This document shows, piece by piece, positions 4,366 to 17,007 of a stretch of DNA of 21,611 nucleotides; positions within the stretch are counted from its first letter, which is position 1, and each line of letters starts with the position of its first letter. Both the position numbers and the translations under genes were made by a program. This DNA is from a virus. The notes under the pieces were generated by a model, which saw only the letters and a list, made by a program, of their open reading frames with translations, was not told where the DNA came from and did not search any database. The DNA is taken from positions 1-21,611 of IMG/VR virus record IMGVR_UViG_3300012001_000036. One strand, written 5' to 3'.

Positions 4366-4622
4366 CTGACCAGATCGAACCGTTGGCTGAAGTCAAGTCG
4401 ATTTACAGTACAAACTTTCGTCAGGTGGCTGCAACCTTGCGCGTGATCGCAGACGGCCTCGACAAAGGCGAGTATGGTGAAGTTACAGAGGCCGCCGTCG
4501 TAATGAAAGTGCCGGATGGCATCGATATGTTTGGTTTGGGCGCCGGACAGACCGGAGCCACGACCGCACTGCTGTTCCATGCCGCGGCGATCAAGATGGC
4601 GATAGCGGCGTCGGAGCCCTGA
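4362..4622 (+). CDS. Conserved-looking small protein between terminase genes
   Basis: 86 residues. It has the segment YSTNFRQVAATLRVIADGL, an acidic stretch (EYGEVTEAAVVM) and a Gly/Ala-rich end. It resembles small hypothetical proteins that I associate with phage terminase genes, but I cannot name a function. Its ATG overlaps the TGA of the small subunit by 4 bases and its TGA shares a base with the ATG of the large subunit, so the three genes look translationally coupled. A role in packaging regulation is inferred from position only. Confidence 0.75.
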   Translation: MTDQIEPLAEVKSIYSTNFRQVAATLRVIADGLDKGEYGEVTEAAVVMKVPDGIDMFGLGAGQTGATTALLFHAAAIKMAIAASEP

Positions 4623-7138
4623 TGGCTGACTTCTCTCCAGAAGAGTTGGATTTCTTGGTCGACAACCTCGAACTGCTACCGGCGCACGAGCGGGCCGAAG
4701 TCCAGTCCATGATCGAGGCGCTAGGCCAGCGCAATGCACAGACGGACGCGCAAAATCACTTCCTTTCGTTTATGAACACAGTCGAGCCCAGCTTGTTGAT
4801 GGGGCCGCAGCACAAGATTATTGGCAACGCCTTCGAACGTATCTGCGATGGGACGCTCAAGCGGGTGATAATTAATATTGCCCCGCGGCATTCCAAAAGC
4901 ACGCTAGCTTCGTATCTATTTCCTGCGTGGTTTTTAGGCCGTTTCCCAACTAAGAAGATCATCATGGCATCCCATACCGGCGACCTCGCAGTCGATTTTG
5001 GCCGTAAGGTGCGCAACTTGGTCGCCTCTCCAATTTATCGTAGTGTATTTCCTGATGTGGCATTAGCTCCCGACAGCAAGGCTGCAGGACGTTGGAACAC
5101 TAACCTCGGCGGCGAATACTTTGCTCTTGGAGTAGGCGCGGCGATGGCAGGACGTGGGAGCGATTTGTGCGTCAATTTAGCTTCTATTGTGATTTCAAAA
5201 CGTGGCAATATAAAAGCCGTAGACGTTGTAGTAGGTGACTATTTATGGGGCCGTTTAGGTTGGGGCATGGTACGTCATGTCATACACAGCGAACACACAA
5301 ACACTATAGTAATTAACAACAAACTTCGCGTTTCAAGAAAACACCCAATATGGACTGCTAACAGGGGATGGGTGAATGCAGAAAATTTAAATACCAAAGA
5401 TAAATTGTGTACGACATCTGTTTGTGATAAAATACGTATCATCTACAATAAAATAGAAGGTACGTACCATGAAAAGCTACACAAGGGAATACAACATATG
5501 GGCGATGATGCGCCAACGTTGCAGCAACCCGAAGGCAGCAAACTACATTGGGTACGGCGCGCGTGGAATAAAAGTGTGTTTGCAGTGGGCCAAATTCGAT
5601 GTGTTCTTAGCCGATATGGGTCCGGCTCCGACCCCACAGCACACACTGGATCGGGAGAACAACGAAGGGGATTACACACCAGCCAATTGCAGATGGGCGT
5701 CGTCGGAAGTGCAACAGAACAATCGACGGGATACGGTCTCTATAACCGCCTTTGGCAAAACACAAAGTCTGGCACAGTGGGTTCGAGAGACTGGATTAAG
5801 TCGCACACAAATAAAACATCGAATTTTTGTAATGGGGCTACAGCCGGAGGCGGCGTTAAAGGCCGAACGAATGAGCTGGAACCAACGCCCTGTTATTCAG
5901 AGGGCGTTGTCAGGAGATTTTATAGAAAAGCATGCATCCTTAGCGGAAGCTTCAAAAAATACAGGAATGCCTGCTGGGGGAATCTGGAACGCGCTGGCCA
6001 AAAAGTCAAAGACTGCTTATGGCTTTCTATGGGAATACGAAGTGTTGTCATAGAAGAGCATGCACCACGCGAGTTTGTTAATTTCCATGTGGAGGGAGAC
6101 AATACATTTATATGTGATACGTATTTGACCCATAACTGTGTCATCGATGACGCCCACTCGGAACAAGAGGCGCGCTCCGGCAACCCGACTATTTTCGACA
6201 GCGCCTATGAATGGTATCAGTCTGGACCGCGGCAGCGGCTGCAACCGGGCGGGGCAATAGTTGTATTAATGACAAGATGGAACAAGCGAGATTTAAGTGG
6301 CCGGCTTATAGAAAACATGATCCGCTCGCCCGACGGTGACGAATGGGAAGTCATAGAACTGCCGGCGATCATGCCATCCGGACTGCCACTCTGGCCAGAG
6401 TTCTGGAGTCTGGAAGAACTGCTGCGTACCAAGGCATCCATGGACTCGCGCTACTGGCAGGCCCAGTACATGCAGGCGCCGACTTCCGAAGAAGGTGCGC
6501 TGGTCAAACGCGAATGGTGGCGGCCGTGGACATTCAAGGAACCGCCCGATTGCGAGTACATCATCGGCTCGCTGGACGCTGCCGCAGAAACTAACAACCG
6601 GGCCGATCACACATCCATCACCGTGTGGGGTGTCTTCTACCGTGAGGACGAGGCCAGCGGCGAGCGCGCGGCTAACATCATCCTGCTCGAATCAATCCGA
6701 GAGCGCATGGAGTTTCCCGACCTTAAAGATACAGCCTACTCGATGTACAAAGAGTGGGATATGGACTGCCTCATCGTTGAGAAAAAATCCAACGGGGTGG
6801 CGCTCTACCAAGAGATGCGGCGTGCTGGCGTCCCAGTATCGGAAGTCACACCTAGCCGCGGCTCTATCATGGCGCCTAACGACAAGACAGCGCGATTGAA
6901 TTCAGTAGCGGATATTATCCGAGCCGGGTTAGTATGGTATCCAGAGAACGAGCGCTGGGCTATAGACTTGATCGATGAGATTGCAGGCTTCCCCAGCTTC
7001 GGTTCGGATGACCGGGTAGATACGACAATCATGGCGCTGGCACGCTTCCGGGCCGGTGGGTTCATCAAGCTGCCGAGCGATCGCGGCTTCGACGAAGAAG
7101 AGCAGAAATTCAGATCACGCCAACGAAAATATTACTAA
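4622..7138 (+). CDS. terL: Terminase large subunit (packaging ATPase and nuclease) with an intein
   Basis: 838 residues as translated; about 515 after removal of residues 183-505, a normal TerL length. The ATPase domain shows a variant Walker A (PRHSKST, residues 88-94), MASHTGD (115-121), and a Walker B split by the intein: GRGSDL ends at residue 182 and CVIDD resumes at 506-510. The motif III-like MTRW follows. The nuclease domain shows an RNaseH-like acidic set: Asp652 in SLDAA, Glu720 in VEKKSNG and Asp800 in DDRVD. The enzyme pumps DNA into the prohead and cuts the concatemer. Because the intein divides the ATPase core, activity should depend on protein splicing. Confidence 0.95.
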   Translation: MADFSPEELDFLVDNLELLPAHERAEVQSMIEALGQRNAQTDAQNHFLSFMNTVEPSLLMGPQHKIIGNAFERICDGTLKRVIINIAPRHSKSTLASYLFPAWFLGRFPTKKIIMASHTGDLAVDFGRKVRNLVASPIYRSVFPDVALAPDSKAAGRWNTNLGGEYFALGVGAAMAGRGSDLCVNLASIVISKRGNIKAVDVVVGDYLWGRLGWGMVRHVIHSEHTNTIVINNKLRVSRKHPIWTANRGWVNAENLNTKDKLCTTSVCDKIRIIYNKIEGTYHEKLHKGIQHMGDDAPTLQQPEGSKLHWVRRAWNKSVFAVGQIRCVLSRYGSGSDPTAHTGSGEQRRGLHTSQLQMGVVGSATEQSTGYGLYNRLWQNTKSGTVGSRDWIKSHTNKTSNFCNGATAGGGVKGRTNELEPTPCYSEGVVRRFYRKACILSGSFKKYRNACWGNLERAGQKVKDCLWLSMGIRSVVIEEHAPREFVNFHVEGDNTFICDTYLTHNCVIDDAHSEQEARSGNPTIFDSAYEWYQSGPRQRLQPGGAIVVLMTRWNKRDLSGRLIENMIRSPDGDEWEVIELPAIMPSGLPLWPEFWSLEELLRTKASMDSRYWQAQYMQAPTSEEGALVKREWWRPWTFKEPPDCEYIIGSLDAAAETNNRADHTSITVWGVFYREDEASGERAANIILLESIRERMEFPDLKDTAYSMYKEWDMDCLIVEKKSNGVALYQEMRRAGVPVSEVTPSRGSIMAPNDKTARLNSVADIIRAGLVWYPENERWAIDLIDEIAGFPSFGSDDRVDTTIMALARFRAGGFIKLPSDRGFDEEEQKFRSRQRKYY
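5168..6136 (+). mobile_element. Intein inserted at the Walker B motif of TerL
   Basis: 323 codons. Splicing residues are visible: Cys1 (TerL residue 183), block B with VSRKHPIW (His59 of the intein), a C-terminal block F of the form EFVNFHVEGDNTFICDTYLTHN (interrupted here only by naming: VEGDNTFIC then TYLTHN), and His322-Asn323 followed by Cys as the +1 residue. Block B has Ser where Thr is usual. About 100 N-terminal and 30-35 C-terminal residues form the Hint splicing domain. The middle, about 195 codons, overlaps an endonuclease gene in another frame and is Gly/Ser/Thr/Arg-rich without recognisable domains in this frame. The Hint-coding DNA at 5200-5460 is visibly more A/T-rich than flanking TerL, fitting horizontal acquisition. 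Confidence 0.92.
5469..6053 (+). CDS. Homing-endonuclease-type protein nested out of frame inside the intein
   Basis: 194 residues in the +1 frame relative to TerL, with AGAAGG (5455-5460) 8 bases before the ATG. The core is MMRQRCSNPK (13-22), YGARGI (29-34), W40, FLADMG (46-51), TLDRENNEGDYTPANCRW (59-76) and Q82/N84-N85, a signature of a phage HNH-like endonuclease family; the N-G-Y-x3-NCRW part resembles the second half of an HNH motif, but the first catalytic His is not obvious. Residues 93-130 and 142-190 look like NUMOD1-type DNA-binding repeats (SLAQWVRETGLSRTQI; SLAEASKNTGM ... GFLWEY). A homologue lies at 21025-21525. Most likely it cuts intein-less terL alleles. Confidence 0.88.
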   Translation: MKSYTREYNIWAMMRQRCSNPKAANYIGYGARGIKVCLQWAKFDVFLADMGPAPTPQHTLDRENNEGDYTPANCRWASSEVQQNNRRDTVSITAFGKTQSLAQWVRETGLSRTQIKHRIFVMGLQPEAALKAERMSWNQRPVIQRALSGDFIEKHASLAEASKNTGMPAGGIWNALAKKSKTAYGFLWEYEVLS

Positions 7139-10721: not shown

Positions 10722-11171
10722 GTGGAAAAGTTCTACCCAAAAATAACCGAGTCAGACAACCGGCTGTATGACCCACTGCGCAACATCGAAAATCGTATGC
10801 CGCCGATAGAAGAGACCTTGACGGACGAGCAACTTGAGCAGGCGCTGCCGAAACCGTGCGGACACAAACTTCTCATTGCGCTACCAAAACCGGAAGAAAA
10901 ATTCGAAGGCAGCTCTTTAGTTAAGGTCGATGTAACAAAATCGAACGAGGAAGTGCTGTCGATCATAGGCATCGTGCTTGACATGGGACCAGACGCTTAC
11001 ATGGACAAAGAGCGGTTCCCGTCCGGCCCTTGGTGCAAGGTTGGGGACTATATCCTTACGGGGCCATACAAGGGGCAGCGTTTTAAATTGAACGGGCAGG
11101 AATTCAGAATTCTCAACGATGACAGCCTCGAAGCCACGGTGAACGATCCAAAAGGTTATAGGAGAATCTGA
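10722..11171 (+). CDS. GroES-like co-chaperonin fold protein
   Basis: 149 residues, GTG start with AAGGAACC upstream. The segment from KPCGHKLLIALPKPEE (about residue 44) through VLDMGPDAYMDKERFPSG and CKVGDYILTGPYKGQRFKLNG to the FRILNDD end matches the beta-barrel pattern of cpn10/GroES proteins seen in phage head operons. A phage GroES-like cap would pair with host GroEL to fold the capsid protein, as T4 gp31 does; that function is inferred by analogy. The N-terminal 40 residues are an extension not found in bacterial GroES. Confidence 0.75.
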   Translation: MEKFYPKITESDNRLYDPLRNIENRMPPIEETLTDEQLEQALPKPCGHKLLIALPKPEEKFEGSSLVKVDVTKSNEEVLSIIGIVLDMGPDAYMDKERFPSGPWCKVGDYILTGPYKGQRFKLNGQEFRILNDDSLEATVNDPKGYRRI

Positions 11172-15852: not shown

Positions 15853-17007
15853 ATGACATCCGCAGTAATATACAACAACGCGAGTACGGTGCCTACATAC
15901 CTAGGTCAGGTCGCGACTGGCACGTTCGTCCCCAACCAACTACATGCATCCAACACGTTCAGCTTCAGCCGTAGCCCACACTACACCCGTGACGATATTG
16001 TGTCGTTACAAGTCGTGCTGCCAAACTGGTATGTCAATGCTTCGATGGTAGAAACTAACGGTGCCAGTAGCGCATCGTGGACGGCAGCCATCGAGTATCC
16101 CGCAGCGACGTACACACAAGTTATGTTCAGCGGAAGTGCTACTGGCACTGTGGTAGCGGGCAGCAACCTGATATCGGATGCCTGTGCGGTAGCGATCCCA
16201 AAAAATTCAAAATTCTGGATTCGACTATACCAGTCTGCCACTGGCCATATACTCTGGTTCAACCAGTATGACGGCGACGGAACCGCTCAGTTCGCCGTAG
16301 GGACCACGGCAGTAGGTTGTCCTGACTACACGATGGGCGGTGGAGCGGGTACTGTTTGCACGCCTCAAGCAGGAGGCATCACGATTCCGGCAGCAATCAT
16401 CGCACAAACATCCATGCCAACAGTCGCTATTGTTGGCGACAGCATCGCAGTGGGCACGGGGGACATTGCAGATTCCTCTAGCCGTCAAGGATATCTATGT
16501 AGGGCGTTCGGGGGCAAGTATGCCTGCTTGAATGTCGCGGTGTATTCTGACACAGCGCAGAATTTCGTAGCATCGCATGCGAAAAGAGCAGCGCTGGTCG
16601 CGTATGCATCGCACGTTATAGTCGAGTATGGGTCGAATGATGTCGTAAACAGTAGGACTGCCGCACAAATTCTTGCGGACACAACCACAATCATCGGCTA
16701 TTTCACAGGCAAGCCTGTTGCAATTTGCACGCTAACGCCTCGTGTAACAACCATTGATGCATATGTGACTGTAGCAAACCAAACTGTCCTAGTATCTGAA
16801 GCTGTGAGATTGGTGGTTAATGCTCAACGTCGCAATGGTCTTTCAGTTGGCAATACACTTGGTCCAGCATTCACGGTGTTTGATATCGAGCGTGCTGCTG
16901 AGAGTTCATATTTGAGCGGTAAGTGGCAGGTTATCAGCGGCACCATATTACCGGGGACTGCAACATATACGGATGACGGAGTCCACCCAAATCGTACTCG
17001 GCACTAA
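15853..17007 (+). CDS. SGNH-fold hydrolase (virion-associated esterase), apparently cut short
   Basis: 384 residues. A beta-rich N-terminal part (1-180) is followed by an SGNH hydrolase domain: GDS with Ser197 (block I), G260-S-N262-D263 (block III) and D375-G-V-H378 (block V), a complete catalytic set. Such phage enzymes deacylate surface glycans of the host. Family members usually continue after HPN with a helix. Here the frame stops with TAA at 17005-17007, and the next 12 codons read AIVNAINTSMFI before a second TAA at 17044-17046. CAA to TAA would explain this. The active-site residues all precede the stop, so the product may still work. Confidence 0.85.
   Translation: MTSAVIYNNASTVPTYLGQVATGTFVPNQLHASNTFSFSRSPHYTRDDIVSLQVVLPNWYVNASMVETNGASSASWTAAIEYPAATYTQVMFSGSATGTVVAGSNLISDACAVAIPKNSKFWIRLYQSATGHILWFNQYDGDGTAQFAVGTTAVGCPDYTMGGGAGTVCTPQAGGITIPAAIIAQTSMPTVAIVGDSIAVGTGDIADSSSRQGYLCRAFGGKYACLNVAVYSDTAQNFVASHAKRAALVAYASHVIVEYGSNDVVNSRTAAQILADTTTIIGYFTGKPVAICTLTPRVTTIDAYVTVANQTVLVSEAVRLVVNAQRRNGLSVGNTLGPAFTVFDIERAAESSYLSGKWQVISGTILPGTATYTDDGVHPNRTRH

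Follow-up and report, generated by a model that had tools for sequence, protein, structure and literature searches.

Inteins are usually described either as bifunctional in-frame proteins or as elements without an endonuclease. The canonical full-length form is seen in the dCTP deaminase of CL131, where a Hint domain and an HNH endonuclease lie in one frame (PMC6293099). In fractured genes, a split intein is accompanied by an endonuclease that stands free (Dassa et al. 2009, as cited in PMC6892783), and the PolB of MIJ3 is a fractured gene with a split intein (PMC6892783). An out-of-frame HNH gene is known from phage DNA methylases, which contain the ShiLan domain and the Pacc40 insertion; the authors tested for an intein and rejected it, and there was no intron either (Arsenault, Gosselin and Gogarten 2025, PMC11855218).

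This study examines a stretch of virus DNA of 21,611 nucleotides, referred to here as the window (IMG/VR record IMGVR_UViG_3300012001_000036). Its terminase large subunit (TerL) gene very probably carries a mobile intein with its homing endonuclease encoded apart, by a +1-frame gene overprinted on the linker between the splicing halves. Like canonical inteins the insert combines Hint and HNH parts, with the endonuclease at the usual insertion place, but the endonuclease is in another frame. Fractured genes also have the endonuclease as its own protein between the intein halves, but there the host gene is two ORFs and in the window it is one. The ShiLan and Pacc40 insertions resemble the window in having an out-of-frame HNH inside an open host gene, an exact insertion and a scattered distribution. 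They differ in lacking a splicing domain and a ribosome site, in the host gene, and in using the +2 frame, and the ShiLan HNH matches the zinc-finger type found in other TerL inteins rather than the HNH type of the window. I-HmuI-like HNH enzymes of phage group I introns have their fold in common with the window protein (1u3e), but their carrier is an intron.

No intein with an out-of-frame endonuclease is described in the papers retrieved from the open PubMed Central set (one preprint on non-canonical phage inteins lies outside that coverage), and the ShiLan domain was the only described out-of-frame HNH of such a sort found in that set. A preliminary description of the locus, made from its sequence, had known of no described class like it. 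That view is nearly right, the ShiLan study having already described out-of-frame HNH genes that lack an intein (PMC11855218).

Results

The TerL gene and its intein

The TerL gene (4622-7138, + strand) encodes 838 aa in one frame that stays open across the insert. The exteins occupy 4622-5167 and 6137-7135 (+ strand), match Terminase_6C (1.1e-9) and TIGR01630 (8e-11), and are 40-60% identical to TerL from cultured and metagenomic phages. The insert between them (5168-6136, + strand) is 323 aa long, corresponds to TerL residues 183-505, and runs from C1 to HN, followed by C+1. These end residues had been named before and were located at TGC 5168-5170 (C1), 6131-6136 (His-Asn) and TGT 6137-6139 (C+1). 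C1, His59 and H322-N323 are invariant among 11 aligned inteins. The block-F position, often His in inteins, is Asp, Ser or Thr in window-type inteins.

The structures of the insert and of the nested protein were predicted with AlphaFold (AF2) from shallow alignments of 10-11 sequences; the intein model was built from 11 related inteins. A confident Hint beta fold was predicted for intein residues 1-95 and 284-323. These are the N-terminal splicing half (5168-5452, + strand, pLDDT ~80-90) and the C-terminal splicing half, which contains block F/G and ends in HN (6017-6136, + strand, pLDDT 76-90). Residues 96-283 had pLDDT <50. Using Foldseek, the best PDB match of the intein model was the gp41-1 intein (6qaz, E 1.6e-5), and the ten PDB matches <0.001 were all inteins or intein-like, in agreement with the earlier view that the TerL frame encodes the splicing domain.

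A search with Hint profiles, suggested in the preliminary description, gave a divided answer. PF14890 (Intein_splicing) matched much of the intein up to its end with E 0.002, but its 18.4 bits fall below the Pfam cut-off of 35.8, and no NCBIfam intein model matched the window intein. Pfam and NCBIfam are too insensitive to serve as the sole intein test here, so structure was used instead; a curated-profile score is a sensitivity aid, not a defining trait of inteins. The end residues, the predicted Hint fold and the exact insertion support the assignment of the insert as an intein, which would be expected to splice.

The nested HNH gene

TerL-frame intein residues 101-295, stop-free and predicted to be mostly disordered, are overlapped by a second gene (overlap 5469-6050, + strand). 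The nested gene (5469-6053, + strand) is +1 relative to TerL and encodes 194 aa, with its own ATG and a TAG stop. The AGAAGG described earlier precedes the nested ATG by 8 nt and falls within a Shine-Dalgarno-like region at 5450-5468 (+ strand). The window ribosome site is modest (-4.6 kcal), and 21% of window ATGs are equally good; over 10 lineages the Shine-Dalgarno-like sites upstream of nested ATGs gave a combined p of 1e-4.

The nested protein matched the PHROG 3377 HNH endonuclease family at 2e-48. Its AF2 model (pLDDT 82) had one significant PDB match, I-HmuI (1u3e, E 2.2e-4, Foldseek). Of the candidate catalytic residues, H58 was present in 9/10 sequences and D61, N73, N84 and N85 were invariant. 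Family profile and fold support the identification of an HNH homing-endonuclease-type gene, whose product would be expected to cleave DNA. The earlier reading, that the endonuclease is confined to the +1 frame and sits in the usual endonuclease place, is thereby borne out. A search of contigs from the genomes of 84,980 bacterial and archaeal species found 26 relatives of the HNH, every match partial.

Three described arrangements were rejected for the window. A canonical bifunctional intein does not fit, with the HNH in the +1 frame only and the TerL-frame segment predicted to be disordered. Nor does a fractured gene with a split intein, as the TerL frame is open and forms a single ORF, or a ShiLan-type insertion, as the window has a Hint domain.

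Nested and split relatives

IMG/VR was scanned with the nested protein and with the intein junction. A 100% identical copy of the window locus is present on a separate contig (L002). Full-length window-type HNH genes occurred in TerL inteins only in these scans. Nine lineages are contiguous: the window with L002, L003-L004, L005, L173, L006-L007, L012, L013-L016, L042-L044, and L047, which is cut by the contig end. The window-type HNH is +1 relative to the host in all nine. Two TerL insertion sites are used (a slash marks the junction): GADL/C..IDD, as in the window, and DDL/C..SEQ, about seven residues on, in L012-L016 and L047. A sequencing frameshift can be rejected given the identical contig and the many diverged relatives with the same layout; a single one is excluded because both Hint halves and both extein halves are in one frame.

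Two further lineages (L008-L011) are of the fractured kind. They have a relative of the window HNH between an IntN ORF and an IntC-TerL ORF, and the host frame is broken (split TerL, split intein and free HNH at 3672-5684 in L008 and 2614-4626 in L011). The IntC-TerL ATG overlaps the 3' end of the HNH gene in these split relatives, by ~19 nt in L008. The change between the nested and split forms may have run in either direction; on the HNH tree, a clade of nested HNHs that leaves out the split pair was not rejected (p-AU 0.506). A search of cultured phages with the whole intein using tblastn gave no match.

Other arrangements were seen in the same set. Fractured TerL genes with another HNH subfamily occur at the same site in L183, L184, L187, L188 and L190, and in L187 and L188 an HNH-like remnant lies ahead of IntC within one ORF. 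In L004, L014-L016, L042 and L047 the TerL carries two inteins, and the second one of L004 (after PPRH, ATPase domain) appears to hold an in-frame LAGLIDADG-type domain.

Mobility

The intein site is empty in 77/77 alignable top TerL relatives and also in the cultured phages HTVC027P, 023Pt_psg01, DSL-LC04 and MinM2. The +1 residue of empty alleles is usually L or F, and the intein flanks match the empty allele exactly. A single clade of carriers was rejected on the TerL tree (p-AU ~1e-82), which required at least nine changes between intein and empty states. The HNH genes of the carriers form one clade versus free-standing HNHs (97/97), in disagreement with the TerL tree. Since carriers are scattered among empty TerL relatives, the intein is mobile.

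Selection on the two frames

The preliminary description had noted that both frames are open. Openness of the TerL frame was tested by holding the HNH protein fixed, redrawing synonymous codons and counting TerL-frame stops. The window overlap has 0 TerL-frame stops versus 7.5-8.0 expected and was open in <1/4000 draws, while the third frame has 12 stops. The open TerL frame is therefore not due to chance. Each of the contiguous carriers was expected to have 4-11 host-frame stops, and 0 were observed. The probability of openness was <1/4000 for the window, L003, L004 and L006, <1/2000 for L173, 0.006-0.011 for L005, 0.0005-0.002 for L012, ~0.002 for L013 and <=0.0003 for L014-L016. The split relatives L008, L010 and L011 have 22 host-frame stops inside the HNH gene.

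Codon choice follows the same division. Among pyrimidine-ending HNH codons of contiguous carriers, 0/180 end in T before AA, AG or GA versus 48% elsewhere; split relatives do not avoid T (79% before AA, AG or GA versus 72% elsewhere). In the +1 layout a TerL-frame stop requires T at the third position of an HNH codon. NNT is always synonymous with NNC, so the +1 host frame stays open at no cost to the enzyme, and no HNH tested had a minimum above zero host-frame stops in this layout. For nearly all of them, the +2 layout would force one stop or more unless an amino acid were changed. We infer that this difference in genetic-code cost explains the +1 bias.

The HNH frame is under purifying selection. 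Between the window and L003, L005 and L006, third codon positions of the HNH gene differ at 0.59-0.67 and first and second positions at 0.26-0.34; for L003 the third position value is 0.59 versus 0.31 and 0.26 at the other positions. The split pair L008 and L011 has the same pattern, with third positions changing fastest. Fourfold sites in the HNH frame are near saturation, and this third-position saturation rules out fine dN/dS estimates.

Host-frame identity was simulated under two conditions alone, a fixed HNH protein and an open host frame. Observed versus simulated amino acid identities in the overlap were 0.27 vs 0.26, 0.25 vs 0.25 and 0.33 vs 0.28 +- 0.03. Removal of stops is the sole clear constraint on the overlapped intein segment. 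Taken with the HNH codon pattern, host-frame identity near simulation indicates that the HNH is the selected protein and that the overlap, read in the TerL frame, behaves as a linker for which the one demand is to lack stops.

Nesting with other HNH groups

The junction scans also revealed zinc-finger HNHs nested in +1 in the TerL inteins of L181, L185, L194 and L195. When these HNHs were searched against cultured phages, +1 matches were found in TerL of Gordonia phage Clown and Synechococcus phage S-EIVl; the ShiLan methylase HNH was matched as well. Both TerL proteins pass the NCBI intein profiles TIGR01443 and TIGR01445 (N- and C-terminal), and in both phages the region matching the HNH is annotated as terminase only. 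The search for phage TerL inteins with a +1 ORF, suggested at the outset, was thus productive in cultured phages too.

A profile scan for the zinc-finger kind identified 29 further TerL inteins, each with the HNH in +1. It also gave three methylase cases resembling ShiLan, each in +2 (L264, L272 and L275, where the HNH lies early in methylase-like genes from uncultivated phages). The T-avoidance count of the zinc-finger set is partly definitional, as these loci were picked for an open host frame, and is not independent proof. In a junction-only scan, 34/36 inteins at the Walker-B site were nested +1, two were mini-inteins and none had an in-frame endonuclease; some of the 34 have short HNH matches only, and the sample is skewed to inteins like the query junctions and overlaps partly with the 29-intein profile scan.

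A third HNH group, with zinc-finger-like motifs, is nested +2. Its inteins use other sites, for the most part close to the C-terminal nuclease motif of TerL (L364 3424-4005; L348, L353, L366-L368, L372, L378 and L381-L383). The host frame was open in 11/11 tested. Locus by locus the probability ranged from 0.001 to 0.75, and single +2 cases are often non-significant alone. Speaking of three HNH groups is a grouping only and makes no claim on kinship beyond the HNH core.

Out-of-frame nesting is therefore recurrent and has largely gone unnoticed, with at least nine window-type lineages and dozens of TerL inteins with two other HNH groups, and the arrangement is not rare as the preliminary description had supposed.

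Outside the Walker-B site, 19 loci (L342-L380) have intein C-terminal junctions in ORFs that begin just 12-31 codons upstream. In Escherichia phage BUCT618 (L198, 1501-2112) a DNA methyltransferase overlaps an out-of-frame ShiLan-like HNH that is broken by a stop. Synechococcus phage MC09 (L199) has short "DNA polymerase" ORFs, one matching an HNH endonuclease, among hypothetical proteins; they look like a mis-annotated fractured polymerase gene.

Discussion

The proposed working of the element is as follows. Ribosomes starting at the TerL ATG would translate the whole 838-aa precursor from a shared mRNA, and the Hint halves would fold around the disordered linker and splice TerL together. Other ribosomes may initiate at the internal site and the ATG at 5469, giving a free 194-aa HNH enzyme. 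This enzyme would cut intein-less terL at the Walker-B site, after which the whole element would be copied.

Other explanations were considered. Programmed frameshifts are used by some phages, and the HNH lies in +1 directly downstream of IntN, so ribosomes might shift from the TerL frame into the HNH and make the enzyme as an IntN-HNH fusion, not in free form. We think this improbable, because a TAG lies in the nested frame just 4 codons before the window's nested ATG, and in several relatives the nested frame opens just 4-13 codons upstream of the ATG. Each relative has an ATG and, on the whole, a Shine-Dalgarno-like site, and the HNH of the split relatives clearly stands as an ORF by itself. 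Some related copies look truncated, with short HNH matches, as they might if a free HNH gene had landed in an old, decayed intein with neither part working and the host frame open by chance or assembly error. Such decay is very improbable: many diverged lineages keep the host frame open, the HNH is under purifying selection, the splicing residues are invariant, the empty sites are exact, carriers are scattered and an identical copy exists on a separate contig. Enzymes of the I-HmuI fold occur in phage group I introns, and the HNH could in principle be carried by such an intron or another RNA element, the intein-like ends being accidental. This can be given almost no weight: Rfam finds no match in the window and no group I intron RNA core, the exon frame is stop-free, and a predicted Hint fold and an HN/C junction are present.

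A separate matter is whether the overlapped segment also has a role in the host frame, for example as a linker that tunes splicing, so that the overlap is kept for both proteins. Some pairs have a small excess of host-frame identity (z 2-3), which residual shared ancestry could also give, and the host frame has an invariant motif, QH.G.D. This motif lies opposite highly conserved HNH codons, however, identity equals the simulated value for the window versus L005, L006 and L012, and AF2 predicts disorder; a host-frame role is thus unlikely. A separate HNH gene overprinted on a linker accounts best for these observations.

More broadly, the loci may represent a general class of phage inteins, not described until now, with an overprinted out-of-frame endonuclease, comprising at least three HNH groups, dominating the TerL Walker-B site and forming a bridge to split inteins. 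We offer this tentatively and consider it somewhat doubtful. On this reading, once the HNH stands as a gene of its own, a contiguous intein would become a fractured gene by gaining stops in the host frame and an internal start close to where the HNH ends. A single HNH family that occurs in both contiguous and split form gives a direct route to study the origin of split inteins and fractured genes.

In the proposed element splicing and homing would be uncoupled at the protein level, yet remain on a single compact element, so either part would be free to change without disturbing the fold of the other. The overlap is a clean natural case of two frames under unlike selection, the one as protein, the other essentially for the absence of stops only. 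As annotation misses the nested HNH in Clown and S-EIVl, counts of mini-inteins and endonuclease-less inteins may be wrong.

Two other genes of the window were identified in passing. A GroES-like co-chaperonin gene (10722-11171, PHROG 3188) lies among structural genes, and a lysophospholipase L1-like esterase (15853-17007, PHROG 8480) lies in the structural region.
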